DNA from: a bacterium
Lineage (GTDB): Bacteria; RBG-13-66-14; B26-G2; WVWN01
Reading direction: 5' to 3'
Length of the DNA: 33,996 nt
Assembly (NCBI GenBank): GCA_035529855.1
Contig: DATKVX010000042.1
Coordinates: forward strand, 72,653 to 106,648
In this document: positions 20,930-33,351 of the stretch, in pieces
How positions within the stretch are numbered: the stretch's first letter is position 1
Layout: every line of letters begins with the position of its first letter
Notes under the pieces: model-generated
The model's input: only the letters and a program-made list of their open reading frames with translations
The model's database searches: none
Told to the model about the DNA's origin: nothing
Program-made: the position numbers and the translations under genes

Positions 20930-21298
20930 ATGATAACCATGAAAAAAGCCGCCGAAATATTCAAAGCCCTCGCTGAGCCCAACCGCGTCCGCATCCTGGC
21001 GGCGCTCGCGTCGCGGCGGGCGTGCGTGTGCGAGCTGTCGCGAGCGTTGGCGCTCAACCAACCGAACGTCTCCCGCCACCTCCGTATACTCAAAGACGTG
21101 GGCCTGCTCGAGAGCCGGCGCCGCGGCGCCTGGACCGACTACTTACTGAATAGGAACGCCGAGAACGCGCCCTTTATACGGTTGATTAAGAATTTAGCCG
21201 CCGCGGGCGACGCCCTTAAAAAGGACGCCGAGGCGCTGGCGAACGCGGACCGGCTGCAAATCCAAAAGTGCAATAAACGACGGCCAAGACGCCGATAG
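20930..21298 (+). CDS. arsR: ArsR/SmtB-family metalloregulator
   Basis: Winged-helix repressor that likely releases DNA on binding As(III)/Sb(III). In the 122 residues, AEIFKALAEPNRVRILAALASRRACVCELSRALALNQPNVSRHLRILKDVGLLESRRRGAWTDYLL spans the domain. The CVCEL segment matches the thiolate site ELCVCDL of the arsenic sensors (Cys-x-Cys in the alpha-3 helix), and QPNVSRHLRIL is the recognition helix. ATG at 20930 or the in-frame ATG at 20939 (MKKAAEIF) could start translation. The promoter and operator lie directly upstream, and a thioredoxin and Acr3 follow, so it most likely autoregulates the operon. Confidence 0.92.
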   Translation: MITMKKAAEIFKALAEPNRVRILAALASRRACVCELSRALALNQPNVSRHLRILKDVGLLESRRRGAWTDYLLNRNAENAPFIRLIKNLAAAGDALKKDAEALANADRLQIQKCNKRRPRRR

Positions 21299-21387
21299 AC
21301 TTACGCCATACCCGTAATGCAACTCCGCCGGCAATCGGCCGTAAGTAATCGTAAGGCCGCCGGTACCGCTTAACGTTCGGAGGAAAG

Positions 21388-21639
21388 ATGAAAGTCGAAA
21401 TTTTCGGGCCCGGGTGCCCCCGCTGCGAGGAGACGTTTCGGACGATAATAAACGCCGCCGCGGAACTCGAAATCCCGGCGGACATCCAACATATCACGGA
21501 CGTCGCGACGATCGCCGAACGCGGCATTATGTCTACGCCGGCTGTGGCCGTCAACGGCGAGGTGGTCCTGCACGGGAAAACGCCCACGCGCGCCCGGGCC
21601 AAAGAAATCCTCCGGCAATACTACGCCGCCGAGAAATGA
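21388..21639 (+). CDS. Small thioredoxin-like redox protein
   Basis: The 83-residue protein has a glutaredoxin/thioredoxin fold of the 'redox-active disulfide protein' type: MKVEIFGPGCPRCEETFRTI with the CPRC active site at residues 10-13, and GIMSTPAVAVNGEVVLHGK with the cis-Pro. Such small proteins often sit beside arsR and permease genes. It could reduce arsenate-linked disulfides or keep the regulator reduced; the reaction is inferred from context only. The ATG at 21388 has GGAGGA seven bases upstream. Confidence 0.87.
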   Translation: MKVEIFGPGCPRCEETFRTIINAAAELEIPADIQHITDVATIAERGIMSTPAVAVNGEVVLHGKTPTRARAKEILRQYYAAEK

Positions 21640-21652
21640 AGACTTCCCCTCC

Positions 21653-21667
21653 CGGTACGACGTACCG
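21653..21667 (+). repeat. Inverted repeat between thioredoxin and acr3 genes
   Basis: CGGTACG-A-CGTACCG, with 7-base arms and a single central base, lies in the 50-base gap. The one-base centre makes an RNA hairpin unlikely without opening a few pairs. It could be a protein site or chance. Confidence 0.25.
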
Positions 21668-21689
21668 CCTCCCGGGACGGTAGACGCTA

Positions 21690-22748
21690 ATGCCCTCCCC
21701 CCGCGCTAAGTCGCTCAGCTTCTTCGACCGCTTCCTTACGCTGTGGATATTCGCGGCGATGGCCGCCGGCGTGGGCGCGGGTTACGTCCTCCCGCGGCTC
21801 GCCGACGTCCTGGGTCGGTTCAGCGTCGGTACGACGTCGATTCCGATCGCCGCCGGCCTCATCCTCATGATGTACCCGCCGCTGGCGAAAGTCCGCTACG
21901 AGGAAATGGGCCGGGTCTTCCGGAACGTTAAAATCCTCGGCCTATCGCTATTTCAAAACTGGGTCTTGGGGCCGATACTCATGTTCGCCCTCGCCGTCCT
22001 TTTCCTCCGGGGCTTCCACGAGTACATGGTCGGCCTGGTTATGATCGGCCTCGCCCGGTGCATCGCGATGGTCATCGTCTGGAACGATCTCGCCGGCGGG
22101 GACGCCGAATACGCCGCGGGGCTCGTCGCGCTGAACTCGCTATTCCAGGTATTCTTCTATTCGGTTTACGCGTACTTCTTCCTCACGGTCGTGCCCCCCT
22201 TACTCGGCCTGCACGGTACCGCCGTCGCCGTAACCATCGGCCAAATCGCTAAGAGCGTTTTCATATATTTGGGGGTACCGTTCCTCGCCGGGATTATCAC
22301 GCGGTTCGCCTTCCTGCGGTTCAAGGACCGTGATTGGTACGAGGCGAAAATCGTACCCCGCCTCGCGCCGATAACGCCGGCGGCGCTGCTTTTCACGATC
22401 ATCGTCATGTTCTCGCTAAAGGGGCGATACATCGTCGCGATACCGCTCGACGTCCTCCGGATCGCGGTCCCGTTGGTTATATATTTCGTCGTAATGTTCC
22501 TCCTGTCCTTCGTCATGAGCAAATGGGCCGGCGCCCCCTACGCCCAGGCGACGACGCTCTCGTTCACCGCCGCCTCCAATAACTTCGAACTCGCCATCGC
22601 GGTAACCGTCGCCGTTTTCGGCTTGAACTCCGGCGCGGCCTTCGCGGCCGTCATCGGACCGTTGGTCGAGGTTCCCGTCCTTATCGGCCTGGTGAACGTG
22701 GCGCTGTGGTTCAAGCGACGATGGCGTCCCCTCCCGAACGCTGTTTAA
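21690..22748 (+). CDS. acr3: Arsenite efflux transporter, ACR3 family
   Basis: Exports As(III) across the cytoplasmic membrane using the proton motive force. The 352 residues form about ten transmembrane helices. The family hallmarks are [71 protein letters not shown] (with the conserved Cys of GLARCIAMV that is essential in Acr3) and the late [48 protein letters not shown]. The short soluble N-terminus is [15 protein letters not shown]. It lies 50 bases after the thioredoxin gene and is the third gene of the ars operon. No arsenate reductase arsC is present in the window. Confidence 0.94.
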
Positions 22749-22772
22749 AAAAGGGCGGCCCGAAGGCCGCCC
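22747..22772 (-). terminator. Intrinsic terminator of the selenoprotein-candidate gene
   Basis: GGGCGGCC-CGAA-GGCCGCCC (22753-22772) on the plus strand reads on the minus strand as an 8-bp stem with a UUCG tetraloop followed by six T (22752-22747). It lies 75 bases past the stop at 22847. On the plus strand the stem is preceded by A6 and followed by CTTCAG, so acr3 gets at best a weak terminator here. Confidence 0.82.
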
Positions 22773-22846
22773 CTTCAGTCATCGTATACTGTAGGGCCTA
22801 CGATTCTCTCCAACGCGTCGGCGACCGGACGCCGCCGGTGCGAGGT

Positions 22847-23590
22847 TTAATTAAACAAACCCTTAATCCGGCCTACGGACGCGGGTTCGACGCCGACTTC
22901 GCTCCACGTCGCCAGCCCCGCCTGGTACACCGCTTTGGTCCCGAGGTTCTGAACCCAAACGACGAAATGAAGGTTGGTCCGCTTCCAGGGACCGGTAAAT
23001 TTACCGTTAACGGTGACTTGCTTGGTCTCGTCGTTATTGATGGTGAACGCCGTCCCGCCGGCGTTGGGGTACATCTTGCGGAGGACGTGGTGATAAGAGC
23101 GGCCGCTATGAATCAAGTTTTGTTCCGTTAAGGCCACGTGGAAACGGAGGCCCGAACTCGGCATCGTGCCCTGTCTTTTAATGGTAGCCTTAACGGTGAA
23201 ATTATCGTCCGAAGTCGTTATCTTCAGCTTTATCTCGAGCGGGCTGGCGACGTTCTTACGCTGGTTGAAAATGGCCGGCCACGTCGGATAAGGTTGACCG
23301 GTCACGGCGCCGTCGAAGGCGGCCGTGGGCGTAACGGTTATGCCGTAATACGCGCAACGGGCATCGGCGTCGGCGATGGCGAAGGGGTCCGAGCCGCCCC
23401 ACGTCGGATGGTACTCCACCGCGGCGAACCTGCCGCGGTTATTCTCGAAAATCTGATGGAACTGCGCTTCCGCAGCCGGGCACGCCGCTCAAGAGGTAGA
23501 CGTGGTGAGTTCGCCTAAAACCACGCGTTGGAAGGCCAACGCCGGGAACGCCGCTGCGATACAAAGTACTAACAACGTTATCTTTTTCAT
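22847..23590 (-). CDS. Candidate selenoprotein: exported thioredoxin-fold (Omp28-like) protein with in-frame TGA
   Basis: Standard translation gives only a 190-residue piece from an internal Met at 23419. Reading from the ATG at 23590 gives 247 residues, with one in-frame TGA at codon 34 (23491-23489). The order is a signal peptide MKKITLLVLCIAAAFPALA, FQRVVLGELTTSTS, then U-A-A-C-PAAEAQFHQIFENNRGRFAAVEYHP, then a cis-Pro loop GITVTPTAAFDGA. In this thioredoxin-like family the site is normally CxxC (tTxCxxCxxAE), so TGA stands exactly at the nucleophilic Cys. The frame reads on without a break into a C-terminal beta domain (NFTVKATIKRQG, RFHVALTEQNLIH, HHVLRKMYPNAGG, FVVWVQNLGTKAVYQAG). Ribosome site AAGGAGG, promoter and terminator are all present. 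A nonsense mutation or sequencing error is the alternative. Confidence 0.82.
23460..23477 (-). promoter_or_regulatory. Candidate bacterial SECIS element downstream of the TGA
   Basis: The minus-strand RNA GGCUGCG-GAAG-CGCAGUU forms a 7-bp stem (five Watson-Crick pairs and two basal G-U) with a 4-base loop whose first base is G. Eighteen bases separate the UGA from the loop. Known bacterial SECIS hairpins have a short upper stem, a G in the first two loop bases and about 16-37 bases from the UGA, so the geometry fits. Confidence 0.6.
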
Positions 23591-23632
23591 CTCGCCCCTC
23601 CTTGGCGTTTATCGGTTGGTTACGTGACCGCT

Positions 23633-23661
23633 ATCATAATAATCTCCGGCGAGTATTGCAA
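23633..23661 (-). promoter_or_regulatory. Sigma70-type promoter of the selenoprotein-candidate gene
   Basis: On the minus strand TTGCAA (23661-23656), a 17-base spacer and TATGAT (23638-23633) precede the ATG at 23590 by about 42 bases. A strong ribosome site AAGGAGGGG follows. Confidence 0.65.
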
Positions 23662-23740: not shown

Positions 23741-23768
23741 TGCGCGTTTAGCGTCCAAGGAGGTTCCC

Positions 23769-24560
23769 ATGCACGCCATCGTGTGCATAAAACAAGTTCC
23801 CGATACCCAAGAGCTCCAGGTGGACTTCGGCGCCGGCGCAATTAAACGCGACGGCGTCCCCCTTATAATTAACCCCTTCGACGAGTTCGCCGTAGAAGAG
23901 GCCGTCCGCTTGAAGGAAAAGCACGGCGGCGCGGTGACCGCGGTGACGCTGGGGCCCCCCTCGGCCGACGAGGCGCTCCGTGCGGCGCTCGCGATGGGCT
24001 GCGACGGCGCGGTCCATCTGCTGGACGAAGCTTTCGACGGCGGCGATACGTGGGCGACGGCGGTCGCCCTCGCGAAGGCGGTCGAAAAGGTCGGCGCATA
24101 CGACGTCCTCTTCTTCGGCAAAGCGACCTTTGACGGCGACACCGGCCAGGTAGCGCCTCGCGTCGCGGCGCTGCTCGAGCTCCCCATGCTCAACTTCGTC
24201 GCGAAGATCGACGATATCGACTTCGACGCCCAGGCGGTCACGGTGGAGCGGCTGCTGGAGACGGGCCGCGAAGTGGTCCGCGCGCCGCTGCCGGCCGCCA
24301 TCTCGGTGGTAAAAGAAATCAACGAGCCGCGCTACCCGTCGCTCTTGGGAATACGGAAAGCCAAGAAGGTCGAGGTCCCGACGTGGGACGTTGCGGCGCT
24401 GGGCCTCGACGCCGACGGCGTCGGCTCCGCCGGCTCCCTATCCAAGATGGAACGCCTGTACCAACCGCCGGCGCGCGCGGGCGGCGAGATCGTACCCGGC
24501 GAACCCGCCGAAGCCGCTAAAACCGTAACCGAGAAACTTATGGACCAGGGAATTATATAG
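23769..24560 (+). CDS. etfB: Electron transfer flavoprotein beta subunit
   Basis: Small ETF subunit, AMP- or FAD-binding, passing electrons between dehydrogenases and partner redox proteins. The ATG at 23769 is chosen for its AAGGAGG at -13; the longer frame is not family-like. The 263 residues show MHAIVCIKQVPDTQELQVDFGAGAIKRDGVPLIINPFDEFAVEEAVRLKEKHGGAVTAVTLGPPSADEALRAALAMGCDGAVHL, the standard EtfB opening, then DVLFFGKATFDGDTGQVAPRVAALLELPMLNFV and the AIxxVVKEINEPRYPSLLGIRKAKKVEVP signature. The glycine-aspartate run GDTGQV is where bifurcating ETFs bind FAD instead of AMP, but that assignment needs a structural alignment. etfA follows after 14 bases. Confidence 0.95.
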   Translation: MHAIVCIKQVPDTQELQVDFGAGAIKRDGVPLIINPFDEFAVEEAVRLKEKHGGAVTAVTLGPPSADEALRAALAMGCDGAVHLLDEAFDGGDTWATAVALAKAVEKVGAYDVLFFGKATFDGDTGQVAPRVAALLELPMLNFVAKIDDIDFDAQAVTVERLLETGREVVRAPLPAAISVVKEINEPRYPSLLGIRKAKKVEVPTWDVAALGLDADGVGSAGSLSKMERLYQPPARAGGEIVPGEPAEAAKTVTEKLMDQGII

Positions 24561-24574
24561 CCCAGGACGAAGCC

Positions 24575-25573
24575 ATGGCCGACGAATACAAAGGAATTTT
24601 AATTTACATCGAACGCCGACGCGACGGCGCCATAACGCCCGTGGGCGCCGAACTCCTCGGCAAAGGCCGCGAGCTGGCCGACAAACTGGGCGGCGAACTC
24701 GCCGCGGCCATATTCGGCCCGGGCGCGGGCGACGCCGCGGCCGAGCTCTTTCCGATGGGCGCGGATAAGGTCTACGCCGTTGAACACGACATGTTGAAGG
24801 AATTCAGGCCGCGTCCCTACGCCAAAGCGCTCACGCAATTGGCGCAAGAGGCGAAACCGGCCATACTGCTCGCCGGCGCGACTACGCAAGGCCGGGACCT
24901 CGCCGGCGCCGCCGCGACGTATTTAAAAACCGGCCTAACGGCGGATTGCGTCGCCCTGGAGGTAGACGACGCCGGCCTTCTGAAGCAGACGCGCGTGAGC
25001 TGCGGCGGCCGCGTAATGAGCGACTGGATAACGGCCGAAGCCCGGCCCCAGTTCGCGACGGTCCGCCCCAAAATTATGAAACCGCTCGAGCGCGACGCCG
25101 GCCGTACCGGCGAGACGGTCGCCTTTAACGTTGACCTAACGGCCGAAGACGACGTGGGCGAGGTCGTATCGTTTCTGGAAGCGACGGAGACGGTAAACCT
25201 GGGCGAGGCCGATATAATCGTTTCCGGCGGCCGGGGCCTGGGCAACCCGGAAGGTTTTGGGATAATAAAAGAACTCGCCGAAACGCTCGGCGCCGCGGTC
25301 GGTGCCTCGCGCGCCGCCGTGGACGCGGGGTGGATCGAGTACGCGCACCAGGTGGGTCAAACCGGCCGGACCGTTAGCCCGAAACTGTACTTCGCGTGCG
25401 GTATCTCCGGCGCGGTCCAACACCTCGCCGGGATGGGCACCGCGGACGTGATCGTCGCCATAAACAAAGACGAGGAAGCGCCCATATTCAAGATCGCGAC
25501 GTACGGCATCGTCGGCGACCTATACGAAGTCGTACCGGTCCTAATCGAAGAGATTAAGAACCGGCAGAGTTAA
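24575..25573 (+). CDS. etfA: Electron transfer flavoprotein alpha subunit
   Basis: Large ETF subunit that binds FAD. In the 332 residues the N-terminal domain includes GILIYIERRRDGAITPVGAELLGKGRELADKLGGELAAAIFG and PAILLAGATTQGRDLAGAAATYLKTGLTADCVALE. The C-terminal FAD domain contains ADIIVSGGRGLGNPEGFGIIKELAETLGAAVGASRAAVDAGW, HQVGQTGRTVSPKLYFACGISGAVQHLAGM and VIVAINKDEEAPIFKIATYGIVGDLYEVVPVL, all characteristic. AGGA precedes the ATG. There is no acyl-CoA dehydrogenase or FixCX-like quinone reductase next to it; the nearest redox partners are the Hdr/Flx genes 2 kb downstream. Confidence 0.96.
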   Translation: MADEYKGILIYIERRRDGAITPVGAELLGKGRELADKLGGELAAAIFGPGAGDAAAELFPMGADKVYAVEHDMLKEFRPRPYAKALTQLAQEAKPAILLAGATTQGRDLAGAAATYLKTGLTADCVALEVDDAGLLKQTRVSCGGRVMSDWITAEARPQFATVRPKIMKPLERDAGRTGETVAFNVDLTAEDDVGEVVSFLEATETVNLGEADIIVSGGRGLGNPEGFGIIKELAETLGAAVGASRAAVDAGWIEYAHQVGQTGRTVSPKLYFACGISGAVQHLAGMGTADVIVAINKDEEAPIFKIATYGIVGDLYEVVPVLIEEIKNRQS

Positions 25574-25647
25574 CGAATACGAAAGCCGGGAGGGACGGCG
25601 TACATCCCGAACATAACAACTACGGCCGACGCGGCCGCGACTTAGTT

Positions 25648-25676
25648 ATCGGGGGGCATACGCCCCAGCCCCCGAT
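25648..25676 (+). other. Leader hairpin before the radical SAM/DUF4070 gene
   Basis: ATCGGGGG pairs with CCCCCGAT (8 bp, perfect) around a 13-base loop that can itself pair GGGGC with GCCCC in an alternative fold. It ends 8 bases before the AGGAG ribosome site at 25684. No T-run follows, so it is not a classic terminator. It could slow readthrough from etfBA or affect translation. The rest of the 127-base gap shows nothing else supported. Confidence 0.35.
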
Positions 25677-25700
25677 TACGGTTAGGAGATAAAAACCACA

Positions 25701-27323
25701 TTGAACTTATTCACAGCCGAAACGAAGTGCCTTTTAGTACAACCTAAATTCTCTTGCCACAGCTTCTGGAACTATACCGACGTGTGCAAGATCGCAGGGG
25801 CGAAATACCCGGCGCCGCCGTTGGGGCTCTTGACCGTCGCGGCGCTGTTACCCGCCTCCTGGAAAATAAAATTAGTCGACGAAAACGTCGAGAAGCTAAC
25901 CGACGACCACCTCGCCTGGGCCGACGTCGTGATGACCGGCGGGATGTTGCCGCAGCAAGACGGCGTATTACGTATCATCGGGCGTGCCCGGGGCCTGGGT
26001 AAACCGGTGGCGGTGGGCGGACCGGACCCCACTTCCCAGCCCGAGGTTTATAAAGAAGCCGAATATCTGGTATTGGGGGAAGGCGAGGTTACGATCCCGC
26101 TTTTCCTGGCCGACGCAAGACGGGGCGCCCGCGCGGGAGTGTACAAAGCGGAAGAGAAAGCCGACATGACCCGGGCCGTAATCCCCCGCTTCGACCTCAT
26201 CAAGTTTTCCCATTATATGCACGTCGGCGTGCAGTTTTCGCGGGGGTGCCCCTACAACTGTGAATTCTGCGACGTTATCGAACTCTTCGGCCGGAAGCCC
26301 CGTACGAAAACCGCCGACCAGGTCCTCCGCGAGCTCCAATACCTGTATGACTTGGGCTATCGCGGCCACGTCGACTTCGTCGACGACAACCTAATCGGCA
26401 ACCGCACAGAGGTCGTCGCGGTTTTGAGGGCGATGCGGGATTGGCAGGAGGAACGGCGTTACCCCTTCTTTTTCAGCACCGAGGCCTCGCTCAACCTGGC
26501 GAAAAACGAAACGCTCCTCACGCTCATGCAAGACAACGACTTCCGTTACGTCTTCATCGGCATCGAGACGCCGGAAGAACACATCCTGGATAAAACCTCC
26601 AAACAACTCGCCGTCAACGTTACCGTGGCGGAGGCTATTAAAACCATCTCCTCCTACGGGATGATCGTAAACGGCGGCTTCATTATCGGCTTCGACAACG
26701 AGGACGAATCCACGGCCCGCAACCTGATCAGCTGCATTCAAGACACCGGAATATGTATGGCGATGGTCGGCACCCTCTACGCCTTGCCCAACACGCAACT
26801 GACGCGGCGGCTGGAACGCGAAGGCCGGCTATTGTCGAACGGCAGCACGCTGGTGGACGCCGGCCGCGACGTCGACCAAACTTCCAGCGGCCTTAACTTC
26901 GTACCCTCCCGGCCGTGCCTCGATATCCTGCGGGACTACGTCCAAGTGCTGGAGCACATTTATACGCCGAAGAACTACTACGCCCGCGTGGCGCGGACCG
27001 GCGCCAACCTCCGCTCCCGTAACAAATACCGCCCCTCCGGCCGGGCGAAATTGAAAATGTTGTGGGCCTTCGTAAAAACGAGCTCGCACGTCAGCGTAAA
27101 ACCGAGCGTAGCGTTCTTTTATTGGATCACCTTCTTCCGGTTTCTCTTCTTTTCGCCGCGGTCCCTCGTCGCTACCGTAAGCCTGGCGGCAATGTATATT
27201 CATTTCTCCAAACAGTCCCGATTTATAATCGAGGATATAACAAAACGGATCGCCGACTTGCGAACGGTCGGCACGATTCCCCGGGAGCGCGCCGCGTACG
27301 CGGCCGACGCGCGTAAGCCCTAA
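25701..27323 (+). CDS. B12-binding-type radical SAM protein with DUF4070-like C-terminus
   Basis: The 540-residue protein starts at TTG 25701 with AGGAG 12 bases upstream. The cobalamin-type Rossmann domain covers roughly residues 8-160 (CLLVQPKF, PPLGLLTVAALLPASWKIKLVDENVEKL, ADVVMTGGMLPQQDGVLRIIGRARGLGKPVAVGGPDPTSQPEV, YLVLGEGE). The radical SAM motif is SRGCPYNCEFCDV (C183, C187, C190), followed by VDFVDDNLIGNR and FIGIETPEEHILDKTSK. The C-terminal part (from about residue 400, with LRDYVQVLEHIYTPKNYYARV) resembles the DUF4070 extension of the HpnJ-like subgroup, some of which act on hopanoids or other lipids. Hydrophobic stretches near residues 455-515 may contact the membrane. Substrate unknown. 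It differs from the 16-17 kb homologue in length and tail. Confidence 0.9.
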   Translation: MNLFTAETKCLLVQPKFSCHSFWNYTDVCKIAGAKYPAPPLGLLTVAALLPASWKIKLVDENVEKLTDDHLAWADVVMTGGMLPQQDGVLRIIGRARGLGKPVAVGGPDPTSQPEVYKEAEYLVLGEGEVTIPLFLADARRGARAGVYKAEEKADMTRAVIPRFDLIKFSHYMHVGVQFSRGCPYNCEFCDVIELFGRKPRTKTADQVLRELQYLYDLGYRGHVDFVDDNLIGNRTEVVAVLRAMRDWQEERRYPFFFSTEASLNLAKNETLLTLMQDNDFRYVFIGIETPEEHILDKTSKQLAVNVTVAEAIKTISSYGMIVNGGFIIGFDNEDESTARNLISCIQDTGICMAMVGTLYALPNTQLTRRLEREGRLLSNGSTLVDAGRDVDQTSSGLNFVPSRPCLDILRDYVQVLEHIYTPKNYYARVARTGANLRSRNKYRPSGRAKLKMLWAFVKTSSHVSVKPSVAFFYWITFFRFLFFSPRSLVATVSLAAMYIHFSKQSRFIIEDITKRIADLRTVGTIPRERAAYAADARKP

Positions 27324-27365
27324 TTCCGTTTACCCTTTTAACCCCACCGGACAGGTCGAAATTCG

Positions 27366-27394
27366 TTGATTCCCTAAACGGAGGGTTTTATAAT
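27366..27394 (+). promoter_or_regulatory. Distal promoter of the hdr-flx operon
   Basis: TTGATT (27366-27371), 17 bases and TATAAT (27389-27394). The two boxes and the spacing match the etfBA promoter exactly, so etf and hdr may be co-expressed. It starts transcription near 27401, about 110 bases before hdrC. Confidence 0.6.
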
Positions 27395-27432
27395 TACCGG
27401 CCGGTTGAAACGCCGCCTTTATAAAAGGGACG

Positions 27433-27452
27433 AATGTGAAATGTTTCACGTT
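27433..27452 (+). promoter_or_regulatory. Rex/FNR-like inverted repeat upstream of hdrC
   Basis: AATGTGAAATGTTTCACGTT has two near-mirror arms with a single mismatched pair around a TG centre. It holds TGTGAA-N4-TTCACg, close to the Rex consensus TTGTGAA-N4-TTCACAA. Read as TGTGA-N6-TCACg it also resembles a CRP/FNR-family site. It lies after the distal promoter and 11 bases before the proximal -35 box, so it could repress the distal promoter or activate the proximal one. Confidence 0.6.
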
Positions 27453-27463
27453 CTATTTCGCCC

Positions 27464-27493
27464 TTTACAAAGGCGCCGCGGTTTTACTATAAT
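27464..27493 (+). promoter_or_regulatory. Proximal promoter of the hdr-flx operon
   Basis: TTTACA (27464-27469), 18 bases and TATAAT (27488-27493), with start near 27500. AAAAGGG at 27501-27507 is the ribosome site for hdrC. Confidence 0.6.
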
Positions 27494-27513
27494 GGCGACG
27501 AAAAGGGTTGCTC

Positions 27514-28083
27514 GTGATTCGTCTTACCGGAACTCGGGAAAGTAGCGTTGATATAACGCGGATGGAAGCGCATCTCGGCCACCCGCTGAGCCAATGCTAC
27601 CAGTGCGGCAAGTGCTCCGCCGGCTGCCCCGCCGCGTACACGATGGACGAGCCGCCCAACCGCGTTATACGTCTCCTCCAACTCGGCCTGTACGACCGCG
27701 CGCTCGCGCAGAACTCCTACTGGGTGTGCTCCAGCTGCGAGACTTGTACGGCGCGCTGCCCCCGCAACGTCGAAATCAAAGAGATAATGGAGTTGCTCCG
27801 CCACGACGCGTTCCGCCGCGGCGTGACGTCCGGCGAGCGAGCCGTCGTCGTCTTCCACAAAGCTTTCCTCAAAACGGTGGAGTGGTTCGGCCGCCTCTAC
27901 GAGCCCGGCCTTATCATGCTCAATAACCTTTTGAGCGGCCACTTCTTCAAGGACTTCGCCGCCGCTCCCGGTATGGTCTTCAAGGGGAAAATAAAACTCT
28001 TCCCCGGCCGCGGCGCGGACAACGCCGCCGTGCGCCGCATCTTCAAGTACAGCCGCGAGGAGGCGCCGCGCGGTGAAGTTTAG
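27514..28083 (+). CDS. hdrC: Heterodisulfide reductase-type subunit C (HdrC)
   Basis: Small iron-sulfur subunit that passes electrons from HdrA to HdrB. Two cubane [4Fe-4S] motifs, CYQCGKCSAGCP and CSSCETCTARCP, each C-x2-C-x2-C-x3-C with P after the last Cys, lie in the N-terminal half. A helical C-terminus (AFLKTVEWFGRLYEPGLIMLNNLLSGHF) follows and there is no membrane anchor, so it is the soluble type. GTG at 27514 is preferred because AAAAGGG is spaced 6 bases before it; TTG at 27508 would leave no spacing. 189 residues. hdrB starts inside its 3' end. Confidence 0.93.
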   Translation: MIRLTGTRESSVDITRMEAHLGHPLSQCYQCGKCSAGCPAAYTMDEPPNRVIRLLQLGLYDRALAQNSYWVCSSCETCTARCPRNVEIKEIMELLRHDAFRRGVTSGERAVVVFHKAFLKTVEWFGRLYEPGLIMLNNLLSGHFFKDFAAAPGMVFKGKIKLFPGRGADNAAVRRIFKYSREEAPRGEV

Positions 28084-28966
28084 CTATTACCCCGGCTGCA
28101 CCCTCCACTCGACCGCGGTGGAGTACGACCTGTCGGCTCGAGCGGTTTGTAAGACGCTGGGCATCGAGCTCGTGGATATACCGGGGTGGGCGTGCTGCGG
28201 CGCGACGTCCGCGCACTCCGTTAAAGAGCTCGTCGCCTACGCGCTGCCGGCCCACACCATAACCAGCGCGACGGAGGACGCCGTTGTCGCCCCGTGCGCG
28301 GCTTGCTACAACCGCCTGCGCTACACGGACGTGAACCTGCGCGAAGACGCGCACCTCCGCGCCGAGGTCGAGGAAGCCCTGGGGCGGCCGTACCGCGCCG
28401 GCGTCGCCGTCCGCCACCTGTTGGATATAATCGCCAACGACGTACCCCAAGAGGATATAAAGGCCAATCTCGCCGGCACGCTCGGCGGCGTTAAAGTGGT
28501 ATGCTACTACGGCTGCCTGCTCACGCGGCCCAAGGACGTCGCGGCCTTCGACGATATGGAAGAGCCGCGGACGATGGACCGCCTTATGGAGTTGTGCGGC
28601 GCCGAGGTATTGGATTGGCCCCGCCGCGTCGTATGCTGCGGCGCCGCGTTCTCGCTGTCGCGCACCGACGTCGTGTACCACATGACGGGCAAGATCCTCG
28701 CGTCGGCGCTTAAAGCCGGAGCCGACGCCGTCGTCGTCGCGTGCCCGATGTGCCAGTCCAACCTCGACCTGCGGCAGCCGGCTATTCTGAAGAAGCTCGG
28801 CCTGGAAGGCCGCGTTCCCGCCGTCTACTTTACCCAACTGATGGGTTTGTGCATGGGTTACTCGGTGGGCGAGCTCGGCTTCGGTAAAATCATGGTAGAC
28901 ACGTCGCCTTTAATTAAAAAGATAACCGCCGGCCGCGCCCAAGCGGCGGCACCCGCCGAAGGATAA
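28073..28966 (+). CDS. hdrB: Heterodisulfide reductase-type subunit B (HdrB)
   Basis: Catalytic subunit with two CCG domains that hold noncubane [4Fe-4S] clusters in methanogen HdrB. The 297 residues show SYYPGCTLHSTA, GWACCGATS, CAACYNRL for the first set and CYYGCLLTRP, RRVVCCGAAFSLSR, ACPMCQSNL for the second, which gives the C-x(n)-CC-x(n)-C-x2-C pattern twice. It starts at GTG 28073, with GAGGAGG upstream, and overlaps hdrC. In a bacterium the natural substrate is not CoM-S-S-CoB; in Flx-Hdr systems a low-potential acceptor such as the DsrC disulfide or ferredoxin has been proposed. Confidence 0.95.
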   Translation: MKFSYYPGCTLHSTAVEYDLSARAVCKTLGIELVDIPGWACCGATSAHSVKELVAYALPAHTITSATEDAVVAPCAACYNRLRYTDVNLREDAHLRAEVEEALGRPYRAGVAVRHLLDIIANDVPQEDIKANLAGTLGGVKVVCYYGCLLTRPKDVAAFDDMEEPRTMDRLMELCGAEVLDWPRRVVCCGAAFSLSRTDVVYHMTGKILASALKAGADAVVVACPMCQSNLDLRQPAILKKLGLEGRVPAVYFTQLMGLCMGYSVGELGFGKIMVDTSPLIKKITAGRAQAAAPAEG

Positions 28967-30972
28967 TGGCCCGCGTAGGCGTATTCATCTGTTGGTGCGG
29001 CGCCAATATCGCCTCCACGGTCGATACCGAGAAGGTCACCGAGGCGGCGGCCAAGTTCCCCCACGTCGTCTACGCCACCAACTACAAGTATATGTGCTCG
29101 GACCCGGGCCAGAAGATAATCCTGGACGCGGCCCGCGAGCACAAGTTGGACGGCATCGTCGTCGCCGCCTGCTCTCCCCGGATGCACGAGCCCACCTTCC
29201 GCGCCGTCGCCGCCGAGGCCGGCATAAACCCCTACCGCATGCAGATGGCCAACATCCGCGAGCAGTGCTCGTGGGTGCACGCCGACGTCGACGAAGCGAC
29301 GGCCAAGGCGGTAGACGCCGTACGCATGATGGTGGCGCGCGTGGCGCAGAGCGTCGCGCTCGAGCCCATCAAGGTCCCCGTGACCAAACGCGCGCTGGTC
29401 ATCGGCGGCGGCATCGCCGGCATCCAGGCCGCGCTCGACGTCGCGGACGGCGGCGTCGAAACCATCCTGCTCGAGCGGACGCCCTCCATCGGCGGCAAGA
29501 TGGCGGGCCTGGACGAGACCTTCCCCACCCTCGACTGCTCGCAGTGCATCCTCACCCCCAAGATGGTGGACGCGGCGCGCAGCGAGCTTATTAAGCTCTA
29601 CACGTACTGCGAAGTGGAAAAGGTCGACGGCGCCGTCGGCAACTTCAAGGTAACCATCCGCAAGAAGGCCAAGTACGTAAACCACGAGCTCTGCAACGGC
29701 TGCGGCGACTGCTGGCTCAAGTGCCCCTACAAAAAAATCCCCAGCGAGTTCGACTTCGGCGTCGGCAACCGCAGCGCCATCTACGTCCCGTTCCCCCAGG
29801 CCGTCCCCAACAAGCCGGTCATCGACCGCGAGAACTGCGTCTTCTTCAAGACCGGCAAGTGCCGCGCCTGCGAGAAGTTCTGCCTACGCGGCGCCATCGA
29901 CTTCGAGCAAGAGGACGAATTCGAAGAAGTAGAGGTCGGCGCCATAATCGTCGCGACCGGCTACGACCTCCTCGACCACACGCAGATGGGCGAGTTCCGG
30001 TACGGCGCCATCCCGGACGTCATAACGGGCCTGCAGTTCGAGCGCATGTCGTCGGCCAGCGGTCCGACCGAGGGCAAGATCGTACGGCCTTCGAACGGCG
30101 AGGAGCCGAAGGTGGTCGTCTTCGTCCACTGCGTCGGCTCTCGCGACGAAAACTACAAAGAGTATTGCTCGAAGATATGCTGTATGTACAACGCCAAGCA
30201 CGCCATCATCCTCAAGCACCGCATCCACGACGCCCAGGCATATCTTTTCTACATCGACGTGCGCGCGGGCGGCAAGGGGTACGAGGAATTCTGGAAGCGG
30301 GCGTGCGTCGAGGAGGGCGCGGAGTACCTGCGCGGCCGCGTCTCCCGCGTCTACGACGAGGGCGGAAAGGTAATCGTCGAGGGTCAGGATACGCTCTCGG
30401 GCGAACAAGTCGAGGTGGCCGCGGACCTGGTCGTCCTGGCCACGGCCGTAGTGCCGGCCAAGGGCGCCGAGGAGCTCGCCCGGGCCCTCGGCATCTCCAC
30501 CGATAAGGACGGCTTCTTCAACGAAGCCCACCCCAAGCTCAGGCCGGTGGATACCGCGACCGGAGGCATCTTCCTGGCGGGATGCTGCCAGGCGCCCAAA
30601 GACATCCCGGAGTCGGTGGCCCAGGGTTCGGCCGCGGCGGCCAAAGTATTGGGCCTGCTCTCGAAAGAAGTCATCACCCGCGACCCCACGGTCGCCGTCG
30701 TGGACCCGCTCATCTGCACCGGTTGTTGGAACTGCGTCAACGTCTGCCCCTTCGGCGCGCCGGAGAAGTCCGAAATTACGATTACTATCGACGGCAAGAA
30801 AGTGACGCGGCCGGTTTCGGAGATAAACGAGGCCAAATGCGAGGGCTGCGGCCTGTGCGTCGCGACGTGCCCCGGCAACTGCATCGACCAACACGGCTTC
30901 AGCGACGACCAGGTCTACGCCGAAATCGGCGGTTACCTGGACCGGGTGCGGGCGGCGAAGAACAGTGGCTGA
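28966..30972 (+). CDS. hdrA: Heterodisulfide reductase-type subunit A (HdrA), flavin-bifurcating
   Basis: FAD- and Fe-S-bearing core subunit where electron bifurcation occurs in the Hdr complexes. The 668 residues hold, in order: an N-terminal cysteine segment VFICWCGANIAS, an HdrA N-terminal domain (GIVVAACSPRMHEPTFR), the FAD site ALVIGGGIAGIQAALDVADGG near residue 145, the HdrA-specific TLDCSQCILTPKM, a ferredoxin motif CNGCGDCWLKCP near 243, CVFFKTGKCRACEKFC, AIIVATGYDLLDHTQMGE, VHCVGSRDENYKEYCSKICCMY, and two C-terminal [4Fe-4S] motifs CTGCWNCVNVCP and CEGCGLCVATCP near 583 and 625. The ATG at 28966 overlaps the hdrB stop (TAATG). All key motifs look intact. Confidence 0.97.
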   Translation: MARVGVFICWCGANIASTVDTEKVTEAAAKFPHVVYATNYKYMCSDPGQKIILDAAREHKLDGIVVAACSPRMHEPTFRAVAAEAGINPYRMQMANIREQCSWVHADVDEATAKAVDAVRMMVARVAQSVALEPIKVPVTKRALVIGGGIAGIQAALDVADGGVETILLERTPSIGGKMAGLDETFPTLDCSQCILTPKMVDAARSELIKLYTYCEVEKVDGAVGNFKVTIRKKAKYVNHELCNGCGDCWLKCPYKKIPSEFDFGVGNRSAIYVPFPQAVPNKPVIDRENCVFFKTGKCRACEKFCLRGAIDFEQEDEFEEVEVGAIIVATGYDLLDHTQMGEFRYGAIPDVITGLQFERMSSASGPTEGKIVRPSNGEEPKVVVFVHCVGSRDENYKEYCSKICCMYNAKHAIILKHRIHDAQAYLFYIDVRAGGKGYEEFWKRACVEEGAEYLRGRVSRVYDEGGKVIVEGQDTLSGEQVEVAADLVVLATAVVPAKGAEELARALGISTDKDGFFNEAHPKLRPVDTATGGIFLAGCCQAPKDIPESVAQGSAAAAKVLGLLSKEVITRDPTVAVVDPLICTGCWNCVNVCPFGAPEKSEITITIDGKKVTRPVSEINEAKCEGCGLCVATCPGNCIDQHGFSDDQVYAEIGGYLDRVRAAKNSG

Positions 30973-31423
30973 GGGAAAAAAGCAAAAAGCACCCGAGAAG
31001 GCGCCGCCGTGGGAGCCGAACATCGTCGGCTTCCTGTGCAACTGGTGCTCGTACGCCGGCGCGGACCTGGCGGGTACGAGCCGCATCCCGTATCCGTGCG
31101 ACGTTCGCATTATCCGGGTGCCGTGTTCCGGGCGCGTCGACCCCCTTATGATACTCCGCGCCTTCCGCGAGGGCGCCGACGGCGTACTCGTCTCGGGCTG
31201 CCACCCCGGCGACTGCCACTACATCGAGGGCAACTACTACGCCCGGCGTAAGTTCATCGCGCTTAAAAAACTGCTCGACCACGTCGGCATCGACCCGCGC
31301 CGCTTCCGCGTCTCCTGGGTATCGGCGTCGGAAGGCCGCAAGTGGGCCGACGTCGTCGGGGCCGTAACGAAGGAACTGCTCGAGGCCGGGCCGCTCCGCT
31401 ACGAAGAGGATGGCGACGATTAG
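30965..31423 (+). CDS. MvhD/FlxD-type hydrogenase iron-sulfur subunit
   Basis: Small [2Fe-2S] protein that links the electron-entry module to HdrA. In methanogens it is MvhD; in the bacterial bifurcating complex it is FlxD. The 152 residues show IVGFLCNWCSYAGADLAGTSRI near 20-40, VRIIRVPCSGRVDPLMILRAF, and GVLVSGCHPGDCHYIEGNYYARRKF near 75-100, all hallmark. It starts at GTG 30965 and overlaps the hdrA end by 8 bases. A lysine-rich N-terminus (EGKKQKAPEKAPP) precedes the domain. In some methanococci a homologous site carries selenocysteine; here it is an ordinary TGC Cys. Confidence 0.93.
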   Translation: MAEGKKQKAPEKAPPWEPNIVGFLCNWCSYAGADLAGTSRIPYPCDVRIIRVPCSGRVDPLMILRAFREGADGVLVSGCHPGDCHYIEGNYYARRKFIALKKLLDHVGIDPRRFRVSWVSASEGRKWADVVGAVTKELLEAGPLRYEEDGDD

Positions 31424-32294
31424 GGAAGAACTCCAGGCCGCGGTCAAAAAGCTGTTCGACGACGACAAGATCGACTACTTCGTCGGCTACGTGGAGGACT
31501 ACGGCCACACGTTCCCGGCTTTCCTGACCAAGGACTCCGACCTGAGCCGCCTTACTTTCGACCGCAAGTCGTACAACAACCTCGCGAACTTCCTGCCGGA
31601 GCTGCGCGGCTTCCGCGTCGGCTTGATATGCAAACAGTGCGAGGTGCGTACGCTCAACGTCCTGGCCGCGGAGGGACAGCTCGAGCGGGACAAGTTGGTA
31701 GTCGTCGGCGTTCCCTGCCCGGCGATGGTCGACCCCCGGAAGCTACCGGAGGGCGAGGCCGACTTGGCCTCGCTGGACGAGCCCCTCTGGCAGGAGAAAT
31801 GCCGCCGCTGCCTCGAGCGGAACACCCCCTCCTCAGACGTCTTCGTCGGCGAGCGCGTTAGCACGCCCACCCCCGCCGAGGGGTGGCCTTTACTCGACGA
31901 AGTCGAGGCGATGTCGGCGGAGGAACGCCTCGCCTGGTGGCGCCGTCAGATGTCGCTCTGCATACGCTGTTACGCCTGCCGGCTGGCCTGCCCGCTGTGC
32001 TACTGCCACCAGTGCTTCGCGGAAGACAATAAGCCGCAATGGCTCGATAAATCCGTCGCGCCGGAAAACAACCTCCACTACCACATCATCCGGGCCGTCC
32101 ACCTCGGCGGGCGCTGCATAGAGTGCGGGGAGTGCTCGCGGGTGTGCCCGGTGGGAATCCCGGTCGACGTCTTAAACAACGTTCTCGCGCGCGACTTCGC
32201 CGAGCGCTTCGGCTACGTCTCCGGCGAAACCGCCGAGACCCAACCGGCGCTTACGCAATACGAGCGCGACGACAAGGAAGACTTCATCCTGTAA
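31410..32294 (+). CDS. FlxC-like ferredoxin-type protein with two [4Fe-4S] motifs
   Basis: The 294-residue protein belongs to the iron-sulfur partners of the Flx module. The N-terminal half has FPAFLTKDSDLSRLTFDRKSYNNLANFL and VGLICKQCEVRTLNVLAAEGQL, reminiscent of the FrhB/FdhB-type iron-sulfur family, and CRRCLERNTP. The C-terminal half contains CIRCYACRLACPLCYCHQCF near 183-202 and CIECGECSRVCPVGIP near 235-250. It probably relays electrons between the flavin subunit and MvhD/HdrA. The name is inferred from operon position and cluster content, not from a residue-level comparison. It overlaps the mvhD gene by 14 bases. Confidence 0.78.
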   Translation: MATIREELQAAVKKLFDDDKIDYFVGYVEDYGHTFPAFLTKDSDLSRLTFDRKSYNNLANFLPELRGFRVGLICKQCEVRTLNVLAAEGQLERDKLVVVGVPCPAMVDPRKLPEGEADLASLDEPLWQEKCRRCLERNTPSSDVFVGERVSTPTPAEGWPLLDEVEAMSAEERLAWWRRQMSLCIRCYACRLACPLCYCHQCFAEDNKPQWLDKSVAPENNLHYHIIRAVHLGGRCIECGECSRVCPVGIPVDVLNNVLARDFAERFGYVSGETAETQPALTQYERDDKEDFIL

Positions 32295-32298
32295 GCCG

Positions 32299-33351
32299 AT
32301 GGCCGCCGAGTATTACAGATTGAACAAGGACCGCGTCGCCGAGCTCTTCGAGCGCGCCCGGGCCGACTACGACGTCGTCGCGAAGACGCGCGACGCCAAC
32401 GGCAACCTCGTCTACGGCCGCCCCGCCGCTTTCGGCGACGTCGCGTTCGTCGACGAGCAGCCGCCGATGTCGGCCAAGGCGTTCGCGCTCCCCCAGAACG
32501 AAACGTTGGTCCGGTACGAGCGCGTAGACGATAAAATCCGCGCGGAAGGGCCCGAGGCGGAGGCGCGCGACGTCCTCCTCTTCGGCGTCAATATGTGCGA
32601 CGCCGCCGCGTTCGGAATCATCGACCGTGTCTTCGAGTGGGACTACCTCGACGACCCGTACCTGGGCCGCCGCGCCGGGACTACCCTGTTCGCGCTCGCC
32701 TGCTCGGCCCTGCAGCAGGACTGCTTCTGCGACCGGATATCGTACGCCGAGGACGGCGTCGACGCCGTCGCTTACCCGCTCGAGGGTTATTACCTGGTAA
32801 AGGTCCAGACCGAGAAAGGCCGCAAGCTGGTCGAACGCTACGGAGACCTCTTCGGCGCTGAAGACGGCGACGCGGAAGCCGCGATAAAGGCTTTCCGGGA
32901 AAACGCGGGAACCGCGAAGAAGGAACCGCTGCTCGAGAGCGCTCGAGCCGGCCTTGAGAAGTCCTTCGAGCACGCCGACTGGGAGATACTGGCGAGCACC
33001 TGCATCGGCTGCGGGATATGTACGTACTCCTGCCCGACTTGCCACTGCTTCGACATCCAGGACGAGGGCGGCAGCGTCGCAGGGCGCCGCCTGCGTACGT
33101 GGGACCACTGCACGGGGAGGACCTTCACCGCCATGCCGGCGCACCAACCACGCGACCGCCAATACAAGCGCTACCGGCAGCGACTCCTCCACAAGTTCTG
33201 GTATTACCCGGAGCGGTTCGGGCCGCTCCTCTGCACCGGTTGCGGCCGCTGCATAACGTACTGCCCGGTGAAAATTAACATCAAAGAACTGGTCGAATAT
33301 TTCGGCGGCCTGAAGAACACGCCGCCGGGCGGCGCGCGCCATGGGAAATAA
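32299..33351 (+). CDS. FlxB-like / sulfhydrogenase beta (HydB/AsrA-type) iron-sulfur subunit
   Basis: The 350-residue protein resembles the beta subunits of sulfhydrogenase and AsrA-type proteins, as recalled: LLFGVNMCDAAAFGIIDRVFEWDYLDDPYLGRR, then LFALACSALQQDCFC, EGYYLVKVQTEKGRKLVERYGDLF, and two [4Fe-4S] motifs CIGCGICTYSCPTCHCFDI (near 235) and CTGCGRCITYCPVKINIKEL (near 313). In the FlxABCD model it receives electrons from the NAD(H)-binding subunit. The ATG at 32299 is 4 bases after the preceding stop. The next gene starts within its last codons. Confidence 0.85.
   Translation: MAAEYYRLNKDRVAELFERARADYDVVAKTRDANGNLVYGRPAAFGDVAFVDEQPPMSAKAFALPQNETLVRYERVDDKIRAEGPEAEARDVLLFGVNMCDAAAFGIIDRVFEWDYLDDPYLGRRAGTTLFALACSALQQDCFCDRISYAEDGVDAVAYPLEGYYLVKVQTEKGRKLVERYGDLFGAEDGDAEAAIKAFRENAGTAKKEPLLESARAGLEKSFEHADWEILASTCIGCGICTYSCPTCHCFDIQDEGGSVAGRRLRTWDHCTGRTFTAMPAHQPRDRQYKRYRQRLLHKFWYYPERFGPLLCTGCGRCITYCPVKINIKELVEYFGGLKNTPPGGARHGK

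Follow-up and report, generated by a model that had tools for sequence, protein, structure and literature searches.

The window analyzed here is a stretch of 33,996 nucleotides from the genome of an uncultured bacterium related to Candidatus Coatesbacteria. On its minus strand lies a gene (22847..23590) that starts with ATG, runs for 247 codons, and ends in TAA. As the original prediction had claimed, translation of this frame from 23590 down to 22847 yields a single internal stop, a TGA at codon 34 (23489..23491, minus strand), beyond which the frame stays open for another 213 codons. Read as selenocysteine (Sec), this codon provides the first residue of a UxxC redox motif, U-A-A-C (residues 34-37; 23480..23491, minus strand), in the context TSTS-U-AAC-P. 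The predicted product is an exported, thioredoxin-like protein related to Omp28. Its N-terminus looks like a signal peptide when read from the sequence, in agreement with the earlier claim (MKKITLLVLCIAAAFPALA; 23534..23590, minus strand), and the predicted cleavage site lacks a lipobox.

The expression signals described for this gene were likewise found, all on the minus strand. A ribosome binding site, AAGGAGG, is located at 23597..23603, preceded by a candidate sigma-70-like promoter, TTGCAA-17-TATGAT, at 23633..23661 (9 of 12 in a consensus scan, a match that does not prove function). At the other end, a terminator-like element of the intrinsic type, consisting of a GC hairpin and a U-run (22747..22776; folding energy of -23.6 kcal/mol), separates the gene from a convergent permease gene. 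An internal ATG start had also been placed at 23419, where the codon is in fact GTG.

The convergent neighbors on the plus strand (20930..22748), which form the context of the selenoprotein gene rather than part of it, encode an ArsR-type regulator, a Thioredoxin_3 protein with the motif GPGCPRC, and an SBF/ACR3-like permease, as assigned by Pfam; together they likely constitute a metalloid-resistance cluster. This cluster adjoins the selenoprotein gene in all four genomes of the genus, and is not found beside the orthologue with 41% identity described below. On the other side (23760-33351) are genes for electron transfer flavoproteins, a B12-binding radical SAM/DUF4070 protein, and an hdrCBA-like cluster; the etf-hdr cluster adjoins the selenoprotein gene in three of the four genus genomes. 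This conservation of the gene neighborhood may be plain synteny. The HdrA frame in the window has no in-frame TGA and is of the Cys type, not the Sec type.

TGA also terminates ordinary genes here, among them purH, hdrA, and the small thioredoxin, as had been stated. Of the 35 gene models in the window, 8 end with it, and for Trp the codon TGG is used 123 times; TGA thus functions as a regular stop in this DNA. An in-frame TGA that is apparently read through could in principle reflect a lineage-wide recoding of this codon, for example to Trp or Gly. The stop and TGG usage argue against this, however, as do the alignment of the TGA column with Cys rather than with Trp or Gly and the presence of a full Sec pathway in the genome (both presented below). 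We rejected general recoding on these grounds and assign it a negligible probability. When the window was scanned for further in-frame TGAs with UxxC-like surroundings, no other candidate appeared genuine.

Four orthologues were available for comparison: three belong to the genus of the source genome (80, 75, and 70% identity), and the fourth (41%) belongs to its order; in their records, two are named Candidatus Coatesbacteria and two are labeled Candidatus Zixiibacteriota. In each of the four, a single in-frame TGA occurs, in the codon position where the window gene has it; the TGA is thus present in all five genes, and its occurrence by chance is ruled out. Downstream of the TGA, dN/dS among the four genus members (the window gene included) amounts to 0.13-0.26, and the frame after the TGA is under purifying selection. 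Damaged frames in close relatives, which the original prediction had named as evidence against its claim, were not observed, as the relatives have intact frames with the same TGA.

TGA differs from TGC and TGT by a single base, and a lone stop where a Cys codon is expected is also what would remain if a gene with a CxxC motif had acquired a nonsense mutation; a sequencing error or assembly artefact could have the same appearance. Against this, however, the TGA is shared by five assemblies whose synonymous divergence reaches up to saturation, the low dN/dS values within the genus apply to the very part that follows the stop, and TGA recurs in 33 rows of the wider family. The pseudogene and assembly error readings were thus rejected, and we consider either to be extremely improbable.

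The draft genome from which the window was taken (2.62 Mb, 97% complete) encodes the machinery for Sec incorporation. A tRNA-Sec was found with a score of 66.7 bits, above the Rfam cut-off, and ARAGORN concurred, calling tRNA-SeC(tca). SelA (393.8 bits), SelB (327.6 bits), and SelD (345.8 bits) all scored above their curated cut-offs, so that selA, selB, selC, and selD, the four genes for which a search in the same genome had been proposed, are all present. Among the 14 genomes of the phylum that were searched, SelA exceeded its cut-off in 12 and tRNA-Sec in 11. The SelD gene of the source genome (L014:1102-2050; G000:C25:1102-2025) is itself a selenoprotein gene, whose in-frame TGA lies within the motif G-U-A-A-K; this pattern, UxxK, is the Sec motif given for SelD in a recent review (PMC13188914).

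To the orthologues can be added a wider family, collected from loci both within the phylum and beyond it by similarity to the window protein or to NF045500, a model that carries the NCBIfam name 'Omp28-related selenoprotein'. Among its 63 rows, the codon at the Sec column is TGA in 33, TGC or TGT in 28, and GGA in one, with a gap in the last, and TGA or a Cys codon thus occupies 61 of the 62 rows with a residue at this position; as the rows were selected by similarity to these two references, the ratio of TGA to Cys is not a census. Homologues with Cys at codon 34, whose existence the original prediction had left to be checked, are therefore well represented. The exception with GGA is a distant member (L073; G005:C18:50303-50989), which retains the second Cys.

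Four positions are fully conserved in an alignment of 30 members, namely Cys37, Pro88, Gly94, and the column shared by Sec and Cys. Pro88 (23327..23329, minus strand), within TVTPTAAFDG, falls on the cis-Pro position of the thioredoxin fold, where it would presumably adopt the cis geometry. Sec and Cys have been exchanged repeatedly: at least 11 changes were counted on a quickly built family tree. Support is weak for many of its forks, and the starred branches by themselves require a minimum of 4 changes. The most clear-cut exchange is that between two proteins with 87% identity, of which one is encoded with TGA (L042) and the other with TGC (L026).

A candidate bacterial SECIS element follows the UGA. 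In the window gene, this hairpin, GGCUGCG-GAAG-CGCAGUU (23460..23477, minus strand), places its apical loop 18 nt past the UGA, and none of 200 synonymous-codon shuffles reached equal stability. All four genus copies form a hairpin of 7-8 bp with a loop of 4-6 nt that starts with G, located 17-18 nt past the UGA, and for each of the four, at most 1 of 200 shuffles was as stable. The size and position of these hairpins are those of bacterial SECIS elements. One of the pairs varies between GU, GC, and UA among the copies, but covariation over the five sequences was not significant (103 of 500 shuffles scored as high). In the wider family, hairpin energies were lower in TGA genes than in Cys genes (one-sided p 0.03), while overall folding energy did not separate the two groups. 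Since the shuffles support the element, whereas covariation is not significant and the energies in the wider family are mixed, the hairpin is likely a SECIS, short of proof.

At the protein level, Pfam Omp28 (PF11551) matches residues 80-224 with 56.4 bits, above the gathering score of 34.9 (E 4.3e-15). The matched region lies C-terminal to the UxxC motif, however, and is silent on Sec. When the family profile was compared with solved structures, matches were obtained to 2axo (Atu2684, a DUF1223 protein; 7.9e-11), to HBP35 of Porphyromonas gingivalis (5y1a; 7.2e-8), and to thioredoxin 1fo5 (1.4e-7), with thioredoxin 1nho also among the matches. AlphaFold, applied to five sequences, gave a model with beta strands in the Omp28 part that was poor over the N-terminal domain (residues 1-114, mean pLDDT of 50), and the assignment of the thioredoxin fold therefore rests on profile similarity and the motif. 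From these, we infer an N-terminal thioredoxin-like domain in which UxxC replaces CxxC.

Two of these relatives can be compared with the window protein more closely. DUF1223 (PF06764) shares the region of the E-L-F-T-S-x-x-C-x-x-C-P motif, which was aligned in the profile search, but the window protein scores 28.5 bits against a Pfam cut-off of 30.7, and both positions are Cys in 2axo. HBP35 is a thioredoxin-motif protein with weak similarity in the Omp28-like part as well, whose thioredoxin activity is addressed in a published study (PMC2907840). It contains Cys instead of Sec, however, and roles in heme binding and surface attachment are not indicated for the window protein.

Based on these features, the protein is probably an exported thiol/selenol-disulfide oxidoreductase. 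Alternatively, the selenoprotein could serve at the surface in the binding or delivery of heme, a metal, or an arsenic or selenium species, and not as a general disulfide oxidoreductase. HBP35, although distant, is described as a hemin-binding protein (PMC2907840), and the proximity of the ArsR/thioredoxin/SBF-permease cluster in the four genus genomes would fit such a role. That cluster is convergent and offers no operon partner, however, and its absence next to the 41% orthologue further weakens the connection; moreover, a UxxC motif together with a Pro that is invariant where the cis-Pro is expected is typical of redox catalysis. We regard a binding or delivery function as rather unlikely, and favor the oxidoreductase.

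This analysis showed that the frame is intact and constrained by purifying selection beyond the TGA, that the genome encodes the Sec machinery, and that Sec and Cys are exchanged at the motif. Judged from the sequences, the gene very probably encodes a selenoprotein in which UGA at codon 34 specifies Sec; the sel genes, the relatives with TGA in an undamaged frame, and the Cys homologues all support this part of the original prediction. In the mechanism that we infer, tRNA-Sec and SelB would decode the UGA as Sec, directed by the SECIS hairpin within the coding sequence just 3' of this codon, and the signal peptide would export the product. The thioredoxin-like N-terminal domain would be followed by an Omp28-type beta domain. 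Sec34 would assume the role that the nucleophilic Cys plays in CxxC proteins, Cys37 would be the resolving residue, and the protein would thereby act as a thiol/selenol-disulfide oxidoreductase in the periplasm or at the cell surface.

For Sec systems, a mixed outcome with Cys insertion or termination is possible in principle. The Sec pathway could thus read this UGA while the residue is often Cys, or while translation mostly terminates, leaving a mixed or low-level product. The TGA has long been kept, however, even though TGC is one mutation away, and Sec and Cys have been exchanged repeatedly, which suggests that Sec itself has been selected. A predominantly mixed product is accordingly improbable in our view, and the reading of codon 34 as Sec is preferred.

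The original prediction knew of no Sec member of the Omp28-like family, but such a group, though uncharacterized, is already on record. Zhang and Gladyshev (2008; PMC2398784) described a 'hypothetical protein GOS_C' that has a UxxC motif and a Trx-like fold and is represented by 74 Sec and 312 Cys sequences; according to a 2026 review (PMC13188914), it corresponds to NF045500. With this group, the window protein shares UxxC, a predicted Trx-like domain attached to an Omp28-like one, and the exchange of Sec and Cys. The NF045500 model spans 377 positions, however, of which the window protein, with its 247 amino acids, matches only positions 39-265 (residues 21-226; 36.2 bits, E 4.3e-9). Although 28 of the 30 family members match the model, its cut-off of 200 bits was reached in none of the 386 genomes searched. 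Given this low score and the lack of hits at the cut-off, the window protein is, as judged by sequence, a divergent relative of NF045500 and falls, strictly taken, outside the curated family. Among the papers searched, none paired Omp28 with a selenoprotein, or Coatesbacteria with selenocysteine, and the deep-Sep paper made no mention of an Omp28-type selenoprotein group.

These results add a well-supported selenoprotein group for the phylum of Candidatus Coatesbacteria. They also extend Omp28-like Sec proteins well beyond the curated model, and standard annotation therefore likely truncates or misses many of them. The repeated exchange of Sec and Cys among close relatives, in turn, makes the family well suited as a natural experiment on the advantage of Sec over Cys in redox proteins that are exported. 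More speculatively, the Coatesbacteria-type proteins could form a separate selenoprotein subfamily outside GOS_C/NF045500 with a dedicated role, such as the handling of arsenic, selenium, or heme species at the cell surface, in proximity to the ars-like genes. Selenoproteins of the Omp28 type, with as many as five Sec copies in one genome, could at the same time represent a large redox system that is distributed over many bacterial lineages and insufficiently annotated. We put this combined reading forward tentatively, as a doubtful extension of the data.

Copy numbers of these genes vary between genomes. While the source genome shows a single one, close relatives have four or five Omp28-like paralogues with TGA, of which some are arranged in tandem (G002:C1 at 362036, 362926, 1667005, 1688919, and 1768680; G003:C90 and C25). 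Outside the phylum, one genome (G118) carries four TGA-containing NF045500-like copies (L088 and other loci).
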